From the NCBI GenBank assembly GCA_028281005.1, contig JANQKS010000043.1:1-64000 (forward strand): a stretch of DNA of 64,000 nucleotides, in the 5' to 3' direction. Source of the DNA: Pseudomonadales bacterium (GTDB lineage: Bacteria; Pseudomonadota; Gammaproteobacteria; Pseudomonadales; Azotimanducaceae). Shown one piece after another: positions 33,540 through 40,705 of this stretch. The position numbers and the translations under genes are program-made. Within the stretch, counting starts at the first letter, position 1. Each line of letters starts with the position of its first letter. The notes under the pieces were generated by a model. It was not told where the DNA came from, did no database searches, and saw nothing but the letters and a program-made list of their open reading frames with translations.

Positions 33540-34727
33540 GTGAAATTCTTAAGAACTTTCATGGACAACATCGCTCCGCACTTTGAAAAAGACGGCAAAT
33601 TTGCCGCTCTATTTCCTGCTTACGAGGCCATAGACACGGCGTTGTACACGCCCGGCCATGTCACCCGCGGTGCGTCCCACGTGCGTGACGGGTTGGACTT
33701 AAAGCGCATCATGATGACGGTGTGGTTGTGTGCGTGGATACCTGCATTGGTGGGCAGTTACTTTGTCGGTTTACAAGCCAACGAAGCCATGCAAGCGGCA
33801 GGCATTACTGCCATCGAAGGTTGGCGCGGCTGGTTTTTGAACCCGCTGCTCAGCTTTGACCCGAACAGCGTGGTCGATTGTTTGATCCACGGCTTAGGTT
33901 ATTTCATCCCGCTTTATATTGCCGTGTTTGCCGGCGGTATTTTATTTGAAATCTGGTTTGCATCGGTGCGCGGGCACGAGGTGAACGAAGGTTTTTTTGT
34001 CACCTCCATACTGTTCACGCTGACGTTGCCCGCTGGCATCCCGCTGTGGATGGCGGTCGTTGGCATTGTCTTTGGTGTGGTCATCGGCAAGGAAGTGTTT
34101 GGCGGGACCGGTAAAAACTTCCTCAACCCGGCACTCACCGGCCGCGCGTTTTTGTATTTTGCATACCCGGCCGCCATGTCCGGGGATGCCGTCTGGATTG
34201 CGGTAGATGGTGTTACGCAGGCGACCCCGCTGGGGAACGCAGCGCTTGGTTTGGACTATGGCGTGGACATGATGTCAGCGTTTATCGGATATATGCCGGG
34301 CACCATCGGCGGCGAGTCGATCCTTGCCATCGGCATTGCTGCGGTCATTTTGATCGCCACCCGTATTGCATCCTGGCGAGTCATGCTGGGCTGTGTGATC
34401 GGTTTGGTGGTTACTGTTGGCCTGTTCAATATGATTGATTCTACCAATCCGATGTTCGCCATGAGCCCACTGTGGCACATCATGTTAGGCGGTTTCGCCT
34501 TCGGTGCGGTGTTTATGGCCACCGATCCGGTGTCTGCCGCCCACACGGATACCGGCCGGCTGATTTACGGAATATTGATTGGTTGTATGTGTGCGCTGAT
34601 CAGGGTGGTTAATCCGGCATTCCCCGAAGGGATGATGTTGGCGATCCTGTTCGGCAATCTGTTTGCCCCGCTCATAGATAACGTGGTGGTGCAATCTAAT
34701 ATCAAACGGAGGCTTGCCCGTGGCTAG
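33540..34727 (+). CDS. nqrB: Na+-translocating NADH:quinone reductase subunit B
   Basis: An integral membrane subunit carrying covalent FMN, riboflavin and part of the sodium path. The 395-residue protein starts at GTG 33540, has about ten hydrophobic segments, GKNFLNPALTGRAFLYFAYP, and the flavinylation site DGVTQATPLG, in which the Thr of the S/T-x-A-T motif receives FMN. VFMATDPVSA and FAPLIDNVVVQSNIKRR are conserved towards the end. It overlaps the nqrC start by eight bases. Confidence 0.97.
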   Translation: MKFLRTFMDNIAPHFEKDGKFAALFPAYEAIDTALYTPGHVTRGASHVRDGLDLKRIMMTVWLCAWIPALVGSYFVGLQANEAMQAAGITAIEGWRGWFLNPLLSFDPNSVVDCLIHGLGYFIPLYIAVFAGGILFEIWFASVRGHEVNEGFFVTSILFTLTLPAGIPLWMAVVGIVFGVVIGKEVFGGTGKNFLNPALTGRAFLYFAYPAAMSGDAVWIAVDGVTQATPLGNAALGLDYGVDMMSAFIGYMPGTIGGESILAIGIAAVILIATRIASWRVMLGCVIGLVVTVGLFNMIDSTNPMFAMSPLWHIMLGGFAFGAVFMATDPVSAAHTDTGRLIYGILIGCMCALIRVVNPAFPEGMMLAILFGNLFAPLIDNVVVQSNIKRRLARG

Positions 34728-35517
34728 TTTTGACAAAGACAGTCTCAGCAACACCTTCATAGTCGCCGTAGGCATCTGCTTGGTGTGCTCGGTGATTGTG
34801 TCGGGTATTGCGGTCGCGCTAAAACCCCAACAACAACTCAATCGCGAACTCGATCAAAAGCAGAATATCCTGCGCGCCGCAGGTATGTTGCCTGCCGACA
34901 GTAATGTGGATGCGCAAGGGCGCACGGTGGATGAGCTGTTTGCCGAGTTTGAAGTGCGCGTGGTGGATCTGACAACCGGCGAGTACTTAGACGACATTGA
35001 TCCGTCCACCTTTGATCCGATCAAAGCCGCGCGCGCACCGGAAACTTCAATGGCGCTCTCGGCGGAACAGGACATCGCTACTTTACGGCGTCGTGAAAAC
35101 GCCTCTGAGGTGTACATCATGCGCGGCGAGCAAGGCATCGAAAAGCTGGTGCTGCCGGTGCGCGGTTATGGCCTGTGGGGCACCATGTTCGGCTATTTGG
35201 CGTTGGATGCGGACCTGCAAACCATCTCCGGTCTGGGTTATTACAACCATAAAGAAACCCCCGGATTGGGCGGAGAAGTAGACAACCCTCGCTGGAAAGC
35301 AGCTTGGGCCGGTGTGCAATTGTTTGACAGTGCCGGACAACCGGACGTGCGTTTGGTAAAACGGCGCAGTGAAGCGTCGTTGCCTGCGGCGAATTATGAG
35401 GTAGACGCCTTGTCCGGCGCCACGTTCACGACCCGCGGTGTGCAAAACATGGTCAATTTTTGGACGGGTGAACTGGGTTTTGGCCCGTTTATACAACGTT
35501 TAAAGCCTAGCGCCTAA
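34720..35517 (+). CDS. nqrC: Na+-translocating NADH:quinone reductase subunit C
   Basis: A single-span subunit with a periplasmic FMN domain. The start is GTG 34720, supported by GGAG at 34708-34711. The 265-residue protein has one N-terminal transmembrane helix (about residues 13-32) and the flavinylation motif DALSGATFTTRGV near the C-terminus. GYGLWGTMFGYLAL and HKETPGLGGEVDNPRWKA are family signatures. Covalent FMN needs an ApbE-type transferase, which is not encoded next to this operon. Confidence 0.96.
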   Translation: MASFDKDSLSNTFIVAVGICLVCSVIVSGIAVALKPQQQLNRELDQKQNILRAAGMLPADSNVDAQGRTVDELFAEFEVRVVDLTTGEYLDDIDPSTFDPIKAARAPETSMALSAEQDIATLRRRENASEVYIMRGEQGIEKLVLPVRGYGLWGTMFGYLALDADLQTISGLGYYNHKETPGLGGEVDNPRWKAAWAGVQLFDSAGQPDVRLVKRRSEASLPAANYEVDALSGATFTTRGVQNMVNFWTGELGFGPFIQRLKPSA

Positions 35518-35577
35518 GGCGTGTAAGGGCGAAAGGAAAGTAAAAGTAGGGTAAAGAAGGGAAAAGAAGGGACAGAT

Positions 35578-36240
35578 ATGGCCAGTAACAAAGAGGTCTT
35601 AGTCGATCCGATTTTCAACAACAACCCGATTGCCTTGCAGGTGTTGGGTATATGTTCCGCCTTGGCGGTGACCATCAGTATGTCGCAGACGTTGGTGATG
35701 TGCGCAGCGGTGATTTTTGTCTGCACCATGTCCAACGTCGCGGTGTCTTTGGTACGCAACCGTGTACCCACCAACATTCGTATCATTGTGCAAATGACCA
35801 TCATCGCGTCCTTGGTGATTGTGGTGGATCAGGTACTACAAGCGGTGGCTTATGATATTTCCAAGAGCCTGTCGGTGTTTGTGGGTCTGATTATCACCAA
35901 CTGTATCGTCATGGGTCGGGCGGAAGCCTTCGCCATGCAAAACGGTCCTTACCTGTCGGCGCTGGACGGTTTTGGCAACGCGCTAGGCTATAGCGTGATT
36001 CTCGTAGGCGTGGCGCTGATACGCGAGCCATTAGGCGCCGGCACCCTGATGGGTTTTGAAATTTTCCCAACCGTGAGCAACGGCGGCTGGTACCACGCCA
36101 ACGGTATGTTCCTGCTGTCACCCAGTGCATTTTTCATCATCGGCCTGTTTATATGGGCGATTCGCGCTTGGAAGAAAGACCAGGTCGAAGAACCGGAGTA
36201 TGAAATTGCTCCCAACGCGCAGTATCAGGAGGCCATGTAA
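35578..36240 (+). CDS. nqrD: Na+-translocating NADH:quinone reductase subunit D
   Basis: A six-helix membrane subunit that, with NqrE, holds an iron centre. The 220-residue sequence has [18 protein letters not shown], a conserved central cysteine in [16 protein letters not shown], and [18 protein letters not shown]. Cys in the NCIVMGR motif is the expected metal ligand, paired with the equivalent in NqrE. The 60-base gap after nqrC is purine-rich and includes AAGGGA near the start codon. Confidence 0.97.
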
Positions 36241-36242
36241 GC

Positions 36243-36851
36243 ATGGAACATTTCCTCGGCATCTTCATACGCGCGGTATTTATTGAAAATATGGCGCTGA
36301 CCTTCTTCTTGGGGATGTGCACCTTTATCGCCATTTCCAAGAAGATTTCCACCGCCATCGGTTTGGGTATCGCCGTGGTGGTGGTGCTGGCCATCACCGT
36401 GCCGGTGAACAACCTGATTTACAACAACCTGCTGCGTGAAGGCGCGTTGGCCTGGGCCGGGTTCCCGGAAGTGGATTTGAGTTTCCTGGGGCTGCTGTCC
36501 TACATCGGCGTGATTGCCGCCATGGTGCAGATTCTAGAGATGGTGCTGGATAAGTATGTGCCGGTCCTCTACAACGCGCTCGGTGTGTTTCTACCGTTGA
36601 TCACAGTGAACTGCGCCATCTTGGGTGCGTCGTTGTTGATGATCGAACAGGATCAGACCTTTGCTGAAAGTGCCGTTTTTGGTTTAGGCGCCGGCGTTGG
36701 CTGGGCGTTGGCCATCACGGCGTTGGCCGGGGTGCGCGAGAAACTTAAGTACAGTGATGTGCCCGATGGCCTGCGCGGCCTGGGGATTACCTTCATTTCC
36801 GTAGGCTTGTTAAGTCTGTGTTTCATGTCCTTTGGCGGCATCGATATTTGA
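36243..36851 (+). CDS. nqrE: Na+-translocating NADH:quinone reductase subunit E
   Basis: A 202-residue membrane subunit, homologous to NqrD in inverted topology. Recognisable motifs are [18 protein letters not shown] with one metal-ligand cysteine, [26 protein letters not shown] with the second, and [23 protein letters not shown]. It follows nqrD by two bases and its end precedes nqrF by 13 bases. Confidence 0.97.
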
Positions 36852-36864
36852 TTTAGGGAATAGC

Positions 36865-38094
36865 ATGTTAGACACCACGGTATTGCTTGGCGTTGTTATG
36901 TTCACCGGTACGGTGCTGTTTCTGGTGGCGGTCATCTTGTTTGCGCGCTCCAGACTGGTGAGTACAGGTGACGTCACCATCGAGATTAATGATGATCCGG
37001 ACAAAGCCATCCAGGTGCCCGCCGGCGGCAAGCTGCTTGGCACCCTGGCGGCGAAAGGTATTTTTCTGGCCAGCGCCTGTGGCGGTGGTGGCACCTGTGC
37101 GCAATGCCGCTGCCGTGTGGTGGAAGGCGGCGGTAGTATCCTGTCCACGGAAGAAGGCCATTTCACCCGCGGTGAAATACGTGACAACTGGCGCTTAAGC
37201 TGCCAGGTGGCGGTGAAGCAGGATCTCAAAATAGAGATACCGGAAGACGCCATCGGCGTGCAGCGTTGGGAGTGTGAGGTCATGAGCAACCCCAACGTCG
37301 CAACCTTTATCAAAGAGCTGAATCTGAAGCTGCCGGAAGGCGAAGAGGTCGACTTCAAGGCAGGCGGCTATGTACAGCTGGAAATCCCGCCGTACGAAAT
37401 GCAGTACAAGGAAATCGACGTAGAAGAGGAATACCACGACGATTGGGACCGGTTCAACGTGTGGGACAACTTCAGCAAGGTGGATGAAGAAACCATCCGC
37501 GCTTACTCCATGGCCAACTATCCGGAAGAGAAGGGCATCTTAAAGTTCAACATTCGCGTCGCCAGCCCACCGCCGGGGATGGATGTACCGGCGGGTAAAA
37601 TGTCTTCTTATGTCTTTAATCTGAAGCCGGGCGATAAGCTCACCGTGTTTGGCCCCTATGGGGAATTTTTTGTCAAAGACACCCCGGCGGAAAAGATATG
37701 GATCGGCGGTGGAGCCGGCATGGCGCCTTTACGCTCGCAGATCTTTGATGAGTTGCGCCGCCGCGGACGCACCACCAAGATGAGTTATTGGTACGGCGCG
37801 CGATCATTACGCGAGATGTTTTATGTCGAAGAGTTTGATCAACTGGCGCAAGAGTTCGACAACTTTGATTGGCATGTCGCGTTGTCGGATCCGTTGCCGG
37901 AAGACAACTTTGACGGCCATATTGGGTTTATCCATCAAGTTGTGTTCGACAACTACTTAAAAGATCACCCCGCGCCGGAAGACTGCGAATACTATTTGTG
38001 CGGGCCTCCGCCAATGACCGCCGCGGTGTTACAGATGCTTGATGACCTGGGTGTGGAGCCGGAAAATATTCACCTGGATGACTTCGGCGGCTAA
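36865..38094 (+). CDS. nqrF: Na+-translocating NADH:quinone reductase subunit F
   Basis: The NADH-oxidising subunit of about 409 residues. One N-terminal transmembrane helix precedes a 2Fe-2S ferredoxin domain ([13 protein letters not shown], with the fourth cysteine in LSCQVAV), followed by an FAD domain ([11 protein letters not shown]) and a NAD-binding domain ([21 protein letters not shown]). The start is ATG 36865 because homologous NqrF proteins begin at the membrane helix; the frame is open further upstream. It ends the operon: no nqrM or apbE follows. Confidence 0.97.
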
Positions 38095-38106: not shown

Positions 38107-39657
38107 TTAGCCCGCGCGGGTAAACTCCGCGCGGGTGAGATTGCTACCCTGGGGTGTAGGGTCGAGCGGGTAAATTGGCCGGCGCACCTTTTCGAACTGC
38201 ACTTCGCTGTAGTCGGAAGTACATACACCCAAACCTGCACATTCGATGGTGTCTTTGACCAGCTCGCGGAAACCCACGCGGTAGTGGATGCGGCTTTTTA
38301 GCATAATGTAGCGCCGATGGTTGGGTTCCATCCCCAAACAGCGGAAACACTCTGGGTCATAAGGTTCGATGTGTCTGGATATGATGGCGATGTCGATGTC
38401 ATTAGGCAGCGCCAATACGGCACTTGGCCCCATGTTGATGCCTAATCCCCGTGCCATTTCCACGCGTGCCTTAAAGCGACCGTTGCTCAAGAGCTTAACC
38501 TCACCGGTGAGCGTCAACGGTTGGCTTTGTTGCTGCAAAGCCGGCATGTCTAGCTTTCCACCCAGCTGCACGGTCACTTCCGCACCAATCCCGGCGGCCA
38601 TCATGTGCGTCACAACATCCGGGTCGTAGAAACCAAATACCGCAACATCGTGCAGATCCGCGGCCAACACCGCCGCCAACACCTCTGTGGTGTCCATGGT
38701 GCCGCCCGAAGCGGTGTTGTCATAGTGATCGAGAATGAGAACCGGACCGGAGGCGCCGTCGCCTTGGTGCTCCGCGGCGTTTTTAGCACGTGCCATAGAG
38801 TCAGCCAAAGGCTCAACTTGATAAACGAAATGTTCGCGATCCTGCCAGGCCTGGTCGAGCAACTCGTTGGTATAGCCTCGGGCTAGGTCGGCGTTGTTAT
38901 CGGTAATGGTCACCACCGACAAACCAGCGTCATGGATGTCGGCATGCGGAAACCCGGTAAATAGGCTAACCGCCAGACAATTGCTCTGTTCCAGTTGCTT
39001 GACCCGTTCTTGGAGGGCTTGGTTGGGAAAATCATCGGTACCCTGGCGCATTACATGGGGCAACATCGGTGCATTTCCCCAAGTCATGGTGGGTGTTACT
39101 TCACCGGCCAGCATCTTAAAGAAAACGTTAGCGGCACGACGGGCGGTGCCATCCATGTCGATGTGTGGATAGGTGTGGTAACCGCACAGCACATCGCAAT
39201 TGGCCACCATGTCTTCGGTCAGGTTGGCGTGCATATCCAGCGACACGGCGATCGGCAGTTGTGGAAACGCGGTACGTAGACGCTTGAGCAGTTCTCCTTC
39301 GCCGTCGTCGTAGCTTTTAGTTGCCATGGCGCCATGCAGATCGAGCAGCAAAGCGTCCACTTCACCGGCCAACTCGACAATGGCAGCGCACATCGTCTCG
39401 TAAGCATCGTCTTCTACCCGTCCACTGGGGGGCGCGTTTGCGGCAATCCCCATGACAATGTCGGCGTTGTGAGATTCGGCGACCTCGATGTAACCGCCCA
39501 AGCAAGAAGCGGTATTGCGGTAGACATTGAGCGCCGCTTCACCCTGTAGGGGTGCGTCGCGCCCGCCGCTAAAACGATCTAAATCGGTCACCACCGGTGA
39601 AAAGGTATTGGTCTCATGGCTCATCATGGCAATACCTATGCGGATTCGCTCAGTCAT
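38107..39657 (-). CDS. M81 family metallopeptidase, MlrC-like
   Basis: A 516-residue protein of the M81 (microcystinase MlrC) family. The N-terminus has IGIAMMSHETNTFSPV. Likely zinc-site segments are LLDLHGAMATKSYDDGEGEL and SLDMHANLTEDM, with HTYPHIDM shortly after; LDHYDNTASGGTMDTTEVL and the closing MGPSAVLAL are also conserved. Members cleave small peptides or amides; the natural substrate here is unknown. Its ATG overlaps the stop of the GrdB-like selenoprotein gene (ATGA), so the two are translationally coupled. Confidence 0.88.
   Translation of the reverse strand: MTERIRIGIAMMSHETNTFSPVVTDLDRFSGGRDAPLQGEAALNVYRNTASCLGGYIEVAESHNADIVMGIAANAPPSGRVEDDAYETMCAAIVELAGEVDALLLDLHGAMATKSYDDGEGELLKRLRTAFPQLPIAVSLDMHANLTEDMVANCDVLCGYHTYPHIDMDGTARRAANVFFKMLAGEVTPTMTWGNAPMLPHVMRQGTDDFPNQALQERVKQLEQSNCLAVSLFTGFPHADIHDAGLSVVTITDNNADLARGYTNELLDQAWQDREHFVYQVEPLADSMARAKNAAEHQGDGASGPVLILDHYDNTASGGTMDTTEVLAAVLAADLHDVAVFGFYDPDVVTHMMAAGIGAEVTVQLGGKLDMPALQQQSQPLTLTGEVKLLSNGRFKARVEMARGLGINMGPSAVLALPNDIDIAIISRHIEPYDPECFRCLGMEPNHRRYIMLKSRIHYRVGFRELVKDTIECAGLGVCTSDYSEVQFEKVRRPIYPLDPTPQGSNLTRAEFTRAG
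38111..38135. terminator. Hairpin between convergent nqrF and M81 genes
   Basis: CCCGCGCGG at 38111-38119 and CCGCGCGGG at 38127-38135 form a perfect 9-base GC-only stem with a 7-base loop. It overlaps the last codons of the M81 gene and lies 17 bases after the nqrF stop. There is no strong U-run on either side, so it may be a bidirectional attenuator or end-protecting structure rather than a classic terminator. Confidence 0.5.
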
Positions 39658-40607
39658 GCGCTTTCTTCTAGGAATACACAGGTGGTACAGGGCCCCATGG
39701 CTGCGTCTGCATCTGCTTCGTTCTGGTACTGGGGTGTGTCGAAGCGCTCCACGCGGTCGTCTTCATGCGCGTTGGCGTCGTCATTTGAATCCGCGTTGTG
39801 TTCACTCTGTGCAGGTTTAGGACGCATGACGCTGTCTTTCCAGACATCGTCCGTCCGCCACTCGTAAGTTAGATCAACAATGGTGCCGGGCGCTTGAATG
39901 TTTGCCAGTGCTTGTAAAGTGTCTTGCAAAACAGCCATTTGGTTGTCTGTATCCAATGGTTTGCCAGCGGTGTGCCCCAAGGGATAATCCAAATACACGG
40001 CCCGCGGCGGATTAACGGCAGCGGTGATAGACCGTGCGCTGGACATGCTGATGGTGGGGATGCCGCGGCTTTCAATCTCTCGTGCGATCAGTCCAACGGA
40101 CTGGTGGCAGACGGGTCAGACCGGCACCAACAACACGACGTCGACTTCGTCTTGGGTGACCCGCTGCGCCAGGGCCGGGGCCAGAATGTCACGTACCTTA
40201 CGGCTCGAGTAGATGCCTCCCATAAAGGTATAAGCATTGGGTGGCAGACTACCTATCAAGCCCTCGCGCTGGCCGCGGCGCAAGGTTTCTAGCGGAAAGA
40301 CGACGTTAGGATCGCGGCGTGCGTCGGTCAGATCGTAAGCAAAGTGGGTGGCCCGCAGCGTGTCGTTGGCGGTATCACTGGCAATTTCCCGGTAGCTGAA
40401 GTCGTCTTTAAAGTGGAACGCAATCTGTCCGTGTGCATAAATACCGCCGGATGCAATGAGGCCAACCTTACATTGGGCGAGCGGTTTGGTGAGAGGCGTA
40501 AAAGCGGGTGCGTCTGCATTGTGCACCCATTGATAGGGTGGATACCCTAACGCGCTGTATTGCGCCTCGGTGCGTTGAATGTAATCCACCGGCGGCCGAT
40601 CACCCAT
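39654..40607 (-). CDS. GrdB-like selenoprotein with in-frame UGA read as Sec164
   Basis: Related to the glycine/sarcosine/betaine/D-proline reductase selenoprotein B family. A single frame of 317 residues is interrupted only by TGA at 40118-40116. Read as selenocysteine it gives LVPV-U-PVCHQSVGLIARE, a U-x-x-C redox motif where this family has Sec or Cys. A SECIS-like hairpin follows immediately. Upstream, LIASGGIYAHGQIAFHF and TLRRGQREGLIG, and downstream, AREIESRGIPTISMSSAR, are parts of one continuous domain. The start ATG 40607 has GGGAG upstream. The tail ends with GPCTTC. A standard caller would split it into two hypothetical genes. selA/selB/selC must lie outside the window. Confidence 0.8.
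40089..40118 (-). promoter_or_regulatory. Bacterial SECIS element after the UGA codon
   Basis: On the minus strand the UGA (40118-40116) is followed by 12 bases, then CAGUCC (40103-40098), loop GUU (40097-40095) and GGACUG (40094-40089): a perfect 6-base stem. The loop starts 18 bases after the UGA, in the usual range for bacterial SECIS hairpins, and begins with G-U, as in the SelB-binding loop of E. coli fdhF. The hairpin is inside the coding sequence, as expected in bacteria. Confidence 0.75.
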
Positions 40608-40705
40608 CGGTGCTCTCCCATTGCTGTTCTCGGTAACGGACGTTAGCAACGCCAGCCGATGCTGACAACTTGTGCGCCTGGCCGCTTCGATGCAGACTCT
40701 GGGGT

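Follow-up and report, generated by a model that had tools for sequence, protein, structure and literature searches.

The window analyzed here, a 64,000-nucleotide stretch of DNA from a Pseudomonadales bacterium (the host), carries on its minus strand a predicted selenoprotein gene of the PrdB/GrdB type, which is directly followed by an MlrC-like hydrolase gene (Table 1). The selenoprotein frame opens with ATG, comprises 317 codons, and closes with a TGA stop, and its sole internal stop is the TGA at codon 164, in the context LVPV-TGA-PVCHQ. The six-frame list of open reading frames (ORFs) shows the halves before and after codon 164 as separate ORFs. An earlier note on this DNA had taken these two ORFs for parts of one continuous frame broken only by TGA, and direct reading of the minus strand confirmed that they are halves of a single frame.

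Table 1. Features of the predicted selenoprotein locus, with positions counted from the first base of the window
Feature	Position	Strand	Basis or remark
PrdB/GrdB-like selenoprotein gene (predicted)	39654..40607	-	317 residues, with Sec predicted at TGA codon 164
In-frame UGA codon, predicted selenocysteine 164	40116..40118	-	TGA in 80/80 relatives (best 80 of at least 585)
Cys167 codon, second Cys of U-P-V-C (UxxC)	40107..40109	-	Invariant in two alignments (13-row; 52-row structure set)
SECIS-like hairpin, 11 pairs, starting 6 bases after the UGA	40083..40109	-	Covariation across relatives
C-terminal CxxC (CTTC), which may serve the active site as a dithiol relay	39678..39689	-	Sequence (Cys307 and Cys310)
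GGGAG, likely ribosome-binding site	40615..40619	-	Read from sequence; 7 bases 5' of the ATG
MlrC-like M81 hydrolase gene	38107..39657	-	Its start and the selenoprotein stop share 4 bases (ATGA)

Of 369 genomes searched within the host's class, 8 gave matches, the host's own among them. The earlier note had expected Sec or Cys at residue 164 in homologues, and this is what the alignment of 13 members displays: the codon is TGA in nine and TGC (Cys) in four, the Cys forms being the more distant. Two plasmid-borne alphaproteobacterial relatives also have Cys and are annotated as "glycine/sarcosine/betaine reductase selenoprotein B family protein." Further relatives were sought with conserved peptides that follow the Sec residue in three Sec members, a query that excludes codon 164 itself. 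At least 585 relatives were confirmed and the best 80 retained; 79 of these 80 entered the full-length sets, L097 being omitted because its start is cut off. The codon aligned to 164 is TGA in all 80 genome loci, a figure that describes close relatives, since it comes from the best 80 of at least 585, and the Cys forms lie further out. In loci found with a query taken from behind the TGA, such uniformity is not what chance, decay, or sequencing error would produce. Among the matches listed, the relatives include Gammaproteobacteria, Myxococcota, Acidimicrobiia, Acidobacteria, Chloroflexi, Spirochaeta, Alphaproteobacteria, and others, and almost all sequences derive from metagenome-assembled genomes.

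The host genome holds five copies of the gene (contigs C15, C13, C94, C53, and C110), and the aligned codon is TGA in every one. The four further PrdB-like genes are located at C13:69119-69991, C94:4932-5708, C53:1029-1760, and C110:37723-38346, and two of them belong to a distinct, longer subfamily with the motifs UPLC and UPNC and lengths of 396 and 380 residues. Members of this longer subfamily in two other gammaproteobacterial genomes (L039:4860-8272 and L043:7635-12530) have selA no more than about 2.5 kb away, a proximity that, in such distant relatives, fits a link to selenocysteine.

The earlier note had proposed searching the host genome for selA, selB, selC, and selD, and all four are present in this assembly of 5.1 Mb (135 contigs, 98.67% complete). 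Contig C47 encodes both selA (537.2 bits; cut-off, 267.9) and selB (452.6 bits; cut-off, 242.25), while selC, the gene for tRNA-Sec, scores 71.7 bits (cut-off, 47) and selD 276.8 bits (cut-off, 125). Across a comparison set made up of two genomes from among the 80 loci, eight genomes of the host's class (its own included), and a control plasmid, selB exceeded the cut-off in 7/7 tested genomes carrying the Sec form of the family and in 0/3 genomes in which only the Cys form was found. Scans for tRNA-Sec and for the PrdA/GrdE family covered the genomes of 48 of the best 80 loci (of at least 585) together with one control plasmid. Leaving the plasmid aside, tRNA-Sec was above the cut-off in 42 of the 48 genomes, 40 of them at 62 bits or more and two at 48 to 51 bits, and was not found above it in the other 6.

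The predicted SECIS-like hairpin presents an apical loop (40095-40097, minus strand), 18 bases past the UGA, whose first two bases are an invariant G-U. Its pairing, of columns 10-12 and 14-21 with columns 25-32 and 34-36, was tested on 85 sequences aligned gap-free from the UGA onward, in all of which loop bases G22 and U23 are unchanged. The structure alignment (A6), in which Cys167 is invariant, contains 39 of the 79 full-length relatives (from the best 80 of at least 585) and 13 other rows. Paired cells make up 92.3% of the hairpin, versus 22.8 to 35.6% when the partner strand is slid by 1 to 3 columns. Cells changed on both sides number 40, against a shuffle mean of 12.3 and with 0 of 500 shuffles as high, the covariation score is 0.198 versus 0.122 in shuffles, and the covarying column pairs are 15-31, 18-28, and 19-27. 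Two of the five pair measures did not rise above the shuffles (pairs changed on both sides, 3 versus 3.0; further pair types, 7 versus 8.0). As the relatedness of the rows may inflate the contrast with shuffles and coding constraint may maintain part of the pairing, the argument for the hairpin rests on the contrast with the slid versions and on the two-sided changes. In the four Cys forms, the structure pairs at 65.9%, versus 64.3% in shuffles and 29.5 to 52.3% in slid versions. Folded as a single sequence, the window hairpin was no better than shuffles (z of -0.04 and -0.31), and a scan of the window at Rfam gathering thresholds returned no match. A G in the apical loop is a published criterion for bacterial SECIS elements (PMC1088965), and the conserved hairpin just 3' of the UGA has a small apical loop with such a G. 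These results support the reading of UGA 164 as selenocysteine by means of SelB, tRNA-Sec, and the SECIS hairpin. The hidden selenoprotein with Sec164 that the earlier note had suspected is thus upheld by the selA, selB, selC, and selD genes of the host and by the TGA shared by the retained relatives, and the gene is very probably a true selenoprotein.

The description of the product as GrdB-like holds in part. The joined protein matches the Pfam GRDB family (PF07355) at 44.1 bits, above the cut-off of 22, as GrdB of glycine, sarcosine, and betaine reductases does, but the nearest NCBIfam model is PrdB (TIGR04483; 178 bits, below the equivalog cut-off of 300) and not GrdB (TIGR01917; 52.7 bits against a cut-off of 602.2). 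Three GrdB-type NCBIfam models score 57 to 60 bits. These and GrdB itself (the GrdB models including TIGR01917/01918) are matched over their C-terminal half only, at 53 to 60 bits and under their curated cut-offs. The PrdA/GrdE family (PF09338) has no match in the 98.67% complete host genome, although the Enterococcus control plasmid matched. Counted by set, it was found in none of the 4 genomes of one set and in 1 of 48 relatives' genomes (loci from the best 80 of at least 585) in another, one genome being common to both sets. The exception is an Entotheonella genome (G414, with locus L115), which probably has a true glycine reductase because one of its PF09338 matches has a GrdA about 2 kb away. 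The GrdA profile also found nothing in the host genome while matching two other records, so no glycine-reductase partner was found for a gene that the earlier note had placed outside a glycine-reductase operon. An orthologous PrdB or GrdB was rejected on the missed model cut-offs and the partners not found. The absence of matches to the partner family supports an enzyme that would work without a pyruvoyl-bearing PrdA or GrdE.

An AlphaFold2 model of the protein, with Sec164 modeled as Cys, has a mean pLDDT of 94.4 and places residue 164 between a strand (157-161) and a helix (165-180). Foldseek found no solved structure in the PDB at an E value of 0.001 or better, and sequence searches of solved structures gave only matches at E values of 0.04 or worse. 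Weak Foldseek rows, for example, an atypical asparaginase, were not taken as evidence. The mechanism is accordingly proposed without a structural template. A CxxC motif is present within the last 30 residues of 64 of 79 relatives (from the best 80 of at least 585), as it is in the window protein, and was not found in the remaining 15, one of which ends at a contig end.

In the scheme described for D-proline and glycine reductases, selenocysteine attacks a substrate carbon, a Cys thiol cleaves the selenoether to yield a selenenylsulfide, and a carbonyl (pyruvoyl) adduct activates the amine (PMC10298544). An amine route is unlikely for the window protein because PrdA/GrdE was not found. For fluoroacetate reductase, a GrdB-like protein is proposed to act with a partner lacking a pyruvoyl group (PMC10838667). 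This proposed FarB/FarE system of Cloacibacillus porcorum resembles our case in that a GrdB-like Sec protein would attack its substrate without a partner pyruvoyl; it differs in its GrdE-like partner FarE and its operon, and FarB is reported to be without the conserved CxxC (PMC10838667). The improbable amine route and the fluoroacetate case together lead us to favor a stand-alone selenoreductase with a CxxC relay.

We hypothesize that the ribosome, with SelB, tRNA-Sec, and the hairpin, inserts selenocysteine at UGA 164 to produce a single full-length selenoprotein, a PrdB/GrdB-superfamily enzyme that would act without the pyruvoyl partner PrdA/GrdE. Sec164, between the beta strand and the helix, would attack a small electrophilic substrate, presumably one that needs no Schiff-base activation. 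Cys167 would resolve the intermediate as a selenenylsulfide, which the C-terminal CxxC tail or an external dithiol would then re-reduce. The neighboring MlrC hydrolase may supply or process the substrate, and only in some lineages. Under this Sec164/Cys167/CxxC scheme, a stand-alone thiol-dependent reductase becomes the most likely function. We consider it likely, from the sequence comparisons, that the gene encodes a full-length Sec164 selenoprotein of the PrdB/GrdB superfamily which serves as such a reductase without a PrdA/GrdE-type partner.

A comparison of 81 loci (the best 80 relatives of at least 585 and the window) revealed no operon conserved across phyla. The commonest neighbor cluster there is enoyl-CoA hydratase (23/81 loci), in a ranking that excludes both halves of the gene itself and one cluster lying mostly antisense to the gene. 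NqrF is a neighbor in 18 of the best 80 loci (of at least 585) and MaoC in 13, all of them gammaproteobacterial by title except L064, whose title says Proteobacteria. The window itself has, on the plus strand at 33540-38094, ORFs resembling an operon for the Na+-translocating NADH:quinone reductase (Nqr).

That no such conserved operon was found would suit a selenoprotein of general thiol-disulfide or peroxide-detoxifying function, as opposed to a bond-cleaving enzyme for a specific metabolite, as would the UxxC motif and the C-terminal CxxC of 64 of the 79 relatives. This role is nevertheless rather unlikely: the family likeness is to subunits that cleave bonds reductively, no thioredoxin-fold family appears in the Pfam or NCBIfam results, and the five copies in one host genome suggest different substrates.

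The MlrC-like gene raises the alternative that the two products serve one pathway, in which the selenoprotein might, for example, reduce the product released by the hydrolase. The 4-base ATGA overlap in the window speaks for such a coupling, and an MlrC gene also lies directly 3' in L045 and L048 (in the latter cut by the contig end) and, as a fragment, in L053. These amount to only 3 of 80 loci (best 80 of at least 585), although 71 of the 80 hold at least 1,500 bases downstream, and no MlrC-like gene was found at an E value of 1e-3 in the stretches flanking the four other host copies or eight other members, so that a shared pathway appears doubtful. The fragment in L053 (6426-6695) retains just about 90 residues of the MlrC-like gene directly 3' of the selenoprotein gene, which suggests that this lineage lost the hydrolase.

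It is very improbable that the protein is PrdB proper, that is, the D-proline reductase subunit which, with PrdA as its pyruvoyl partner, performs Stickland-type D-proline reduction, even though TIGR04483 is the best NCBIfam match and published surveys call such genes proline reductase PrdB (PMC1088965; PMC2398784). The window protein and PrdB belong to the same superfamily, share UxxC with an in-frame TGA in the PrdB genes compared, and are 36.7% identical over the matched part in the case of Enterococcus raffinosus PrdB. However, besides the missed 300-bit cut-off, the PrdBs of Enterococcus, Terrisporobacter, and Ligilactobacillus adjoin an annotated prdA, have 241 residues and U-GTC, and are without a C-terminal CxxC tail, whereas the window protein has 317 residues, U-PVC, and the tail, and its host has no match to PF09338, unlike the prdA-bearing control plasmid. 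A 39-row tree (20 of the 79 full-length relatives from the best 80 of at least 585 and 19 other rows, midpoint-rooted for drawing) places the window protein with its genome relatives on a branch separate from these three PrdBs. The PrdB branch of the tree also holds an annotated prdB with U-GTC from a Peptoclostridium acidaminophilum plasmid (L132:4935-5648) that has no prdA within its 10.6-kb stretch. The host genome, moreover, encodes two COX1-family oxidases, which point to aerobic respiration, make an aerobic life style plausible, and suit respiration better than Stickland fermentation. Finally, there is next to no chance of a decaying or truncated gene, with the UGA a plain stop or mutated Cys codon that leaves two fragments, for although the single-sequence fold is unexceptional and some relatives have Cys at the codon, TGA in 80/80 relatives (best 80 of at least 585) from several phyla, which ruled out a pseudogene or sequencing error, the full Sec machinery of the host, and the pairing conserved 3' of the UGA all contradict it.

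The earlier note had regarded a selenoprotein of this kind as unusual, a view that neither the published record nor the spread of its relatives over several phyla supports. Reports of UxxC selenoproteins named proline reductase PrdB in marine metagenomes date back to 2005, with 42 genes in one survey (PMC1088965) and 235 in another (PMC2398784), and these proteins rank among the commoner selenoproteins there; elsewhere, proline reductase accounts for 6.4% of 4,324 selenoprotein genes (PMC9402790). Like the window protein, the PrdBs of the Sargasso Sea and GOS surveys are Sec-containing UxxC proteins of marine bacteria, and they are metagenome sequences named after PrdB (PMC1088965; PMC2398784). 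Likened by these descriptions, they and the window's gene very probably form the same group, and since marine UxxC PrdB selenoproteins are already published, the gene belongs to a known kind of selenoprotein. An account of the window's branch as PrdA-less and equipped with a CxxC tail was not found in searches of open-access papers.

The window's group of selenium enzymes is widespread in bacteria, and the surveys, which describe PrdB-type genes as D-proline reductases, find them to be relatively abundant among marine selenoproteins (PMC1088965; PMC2398784). Judged from its anatomy, with no PrdA found, a CxxC tail of its own, and a separate branch, the window's lineage probably does something other than D-proline reduction, so that many bacteria may carry a selenium-dependent activity under a wrong name. 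It is quite possible, as a tentative reading, that this Sec lineage of many phyla represents a single-subunit selenoreductase, equipped with a CxxC relay of its own and independent of a pyruvoyl partner, that acts on a metabolite new to the superfamily, with the five host copies serving different substrates. For annotation, the locus illustrates how a UGA-encoded selenocysteine makes a real enzyme appear as two hypothetical proteins. If the single-subunit selenoreductase is real, the label "proline reductase" would be wrong for most marine members.
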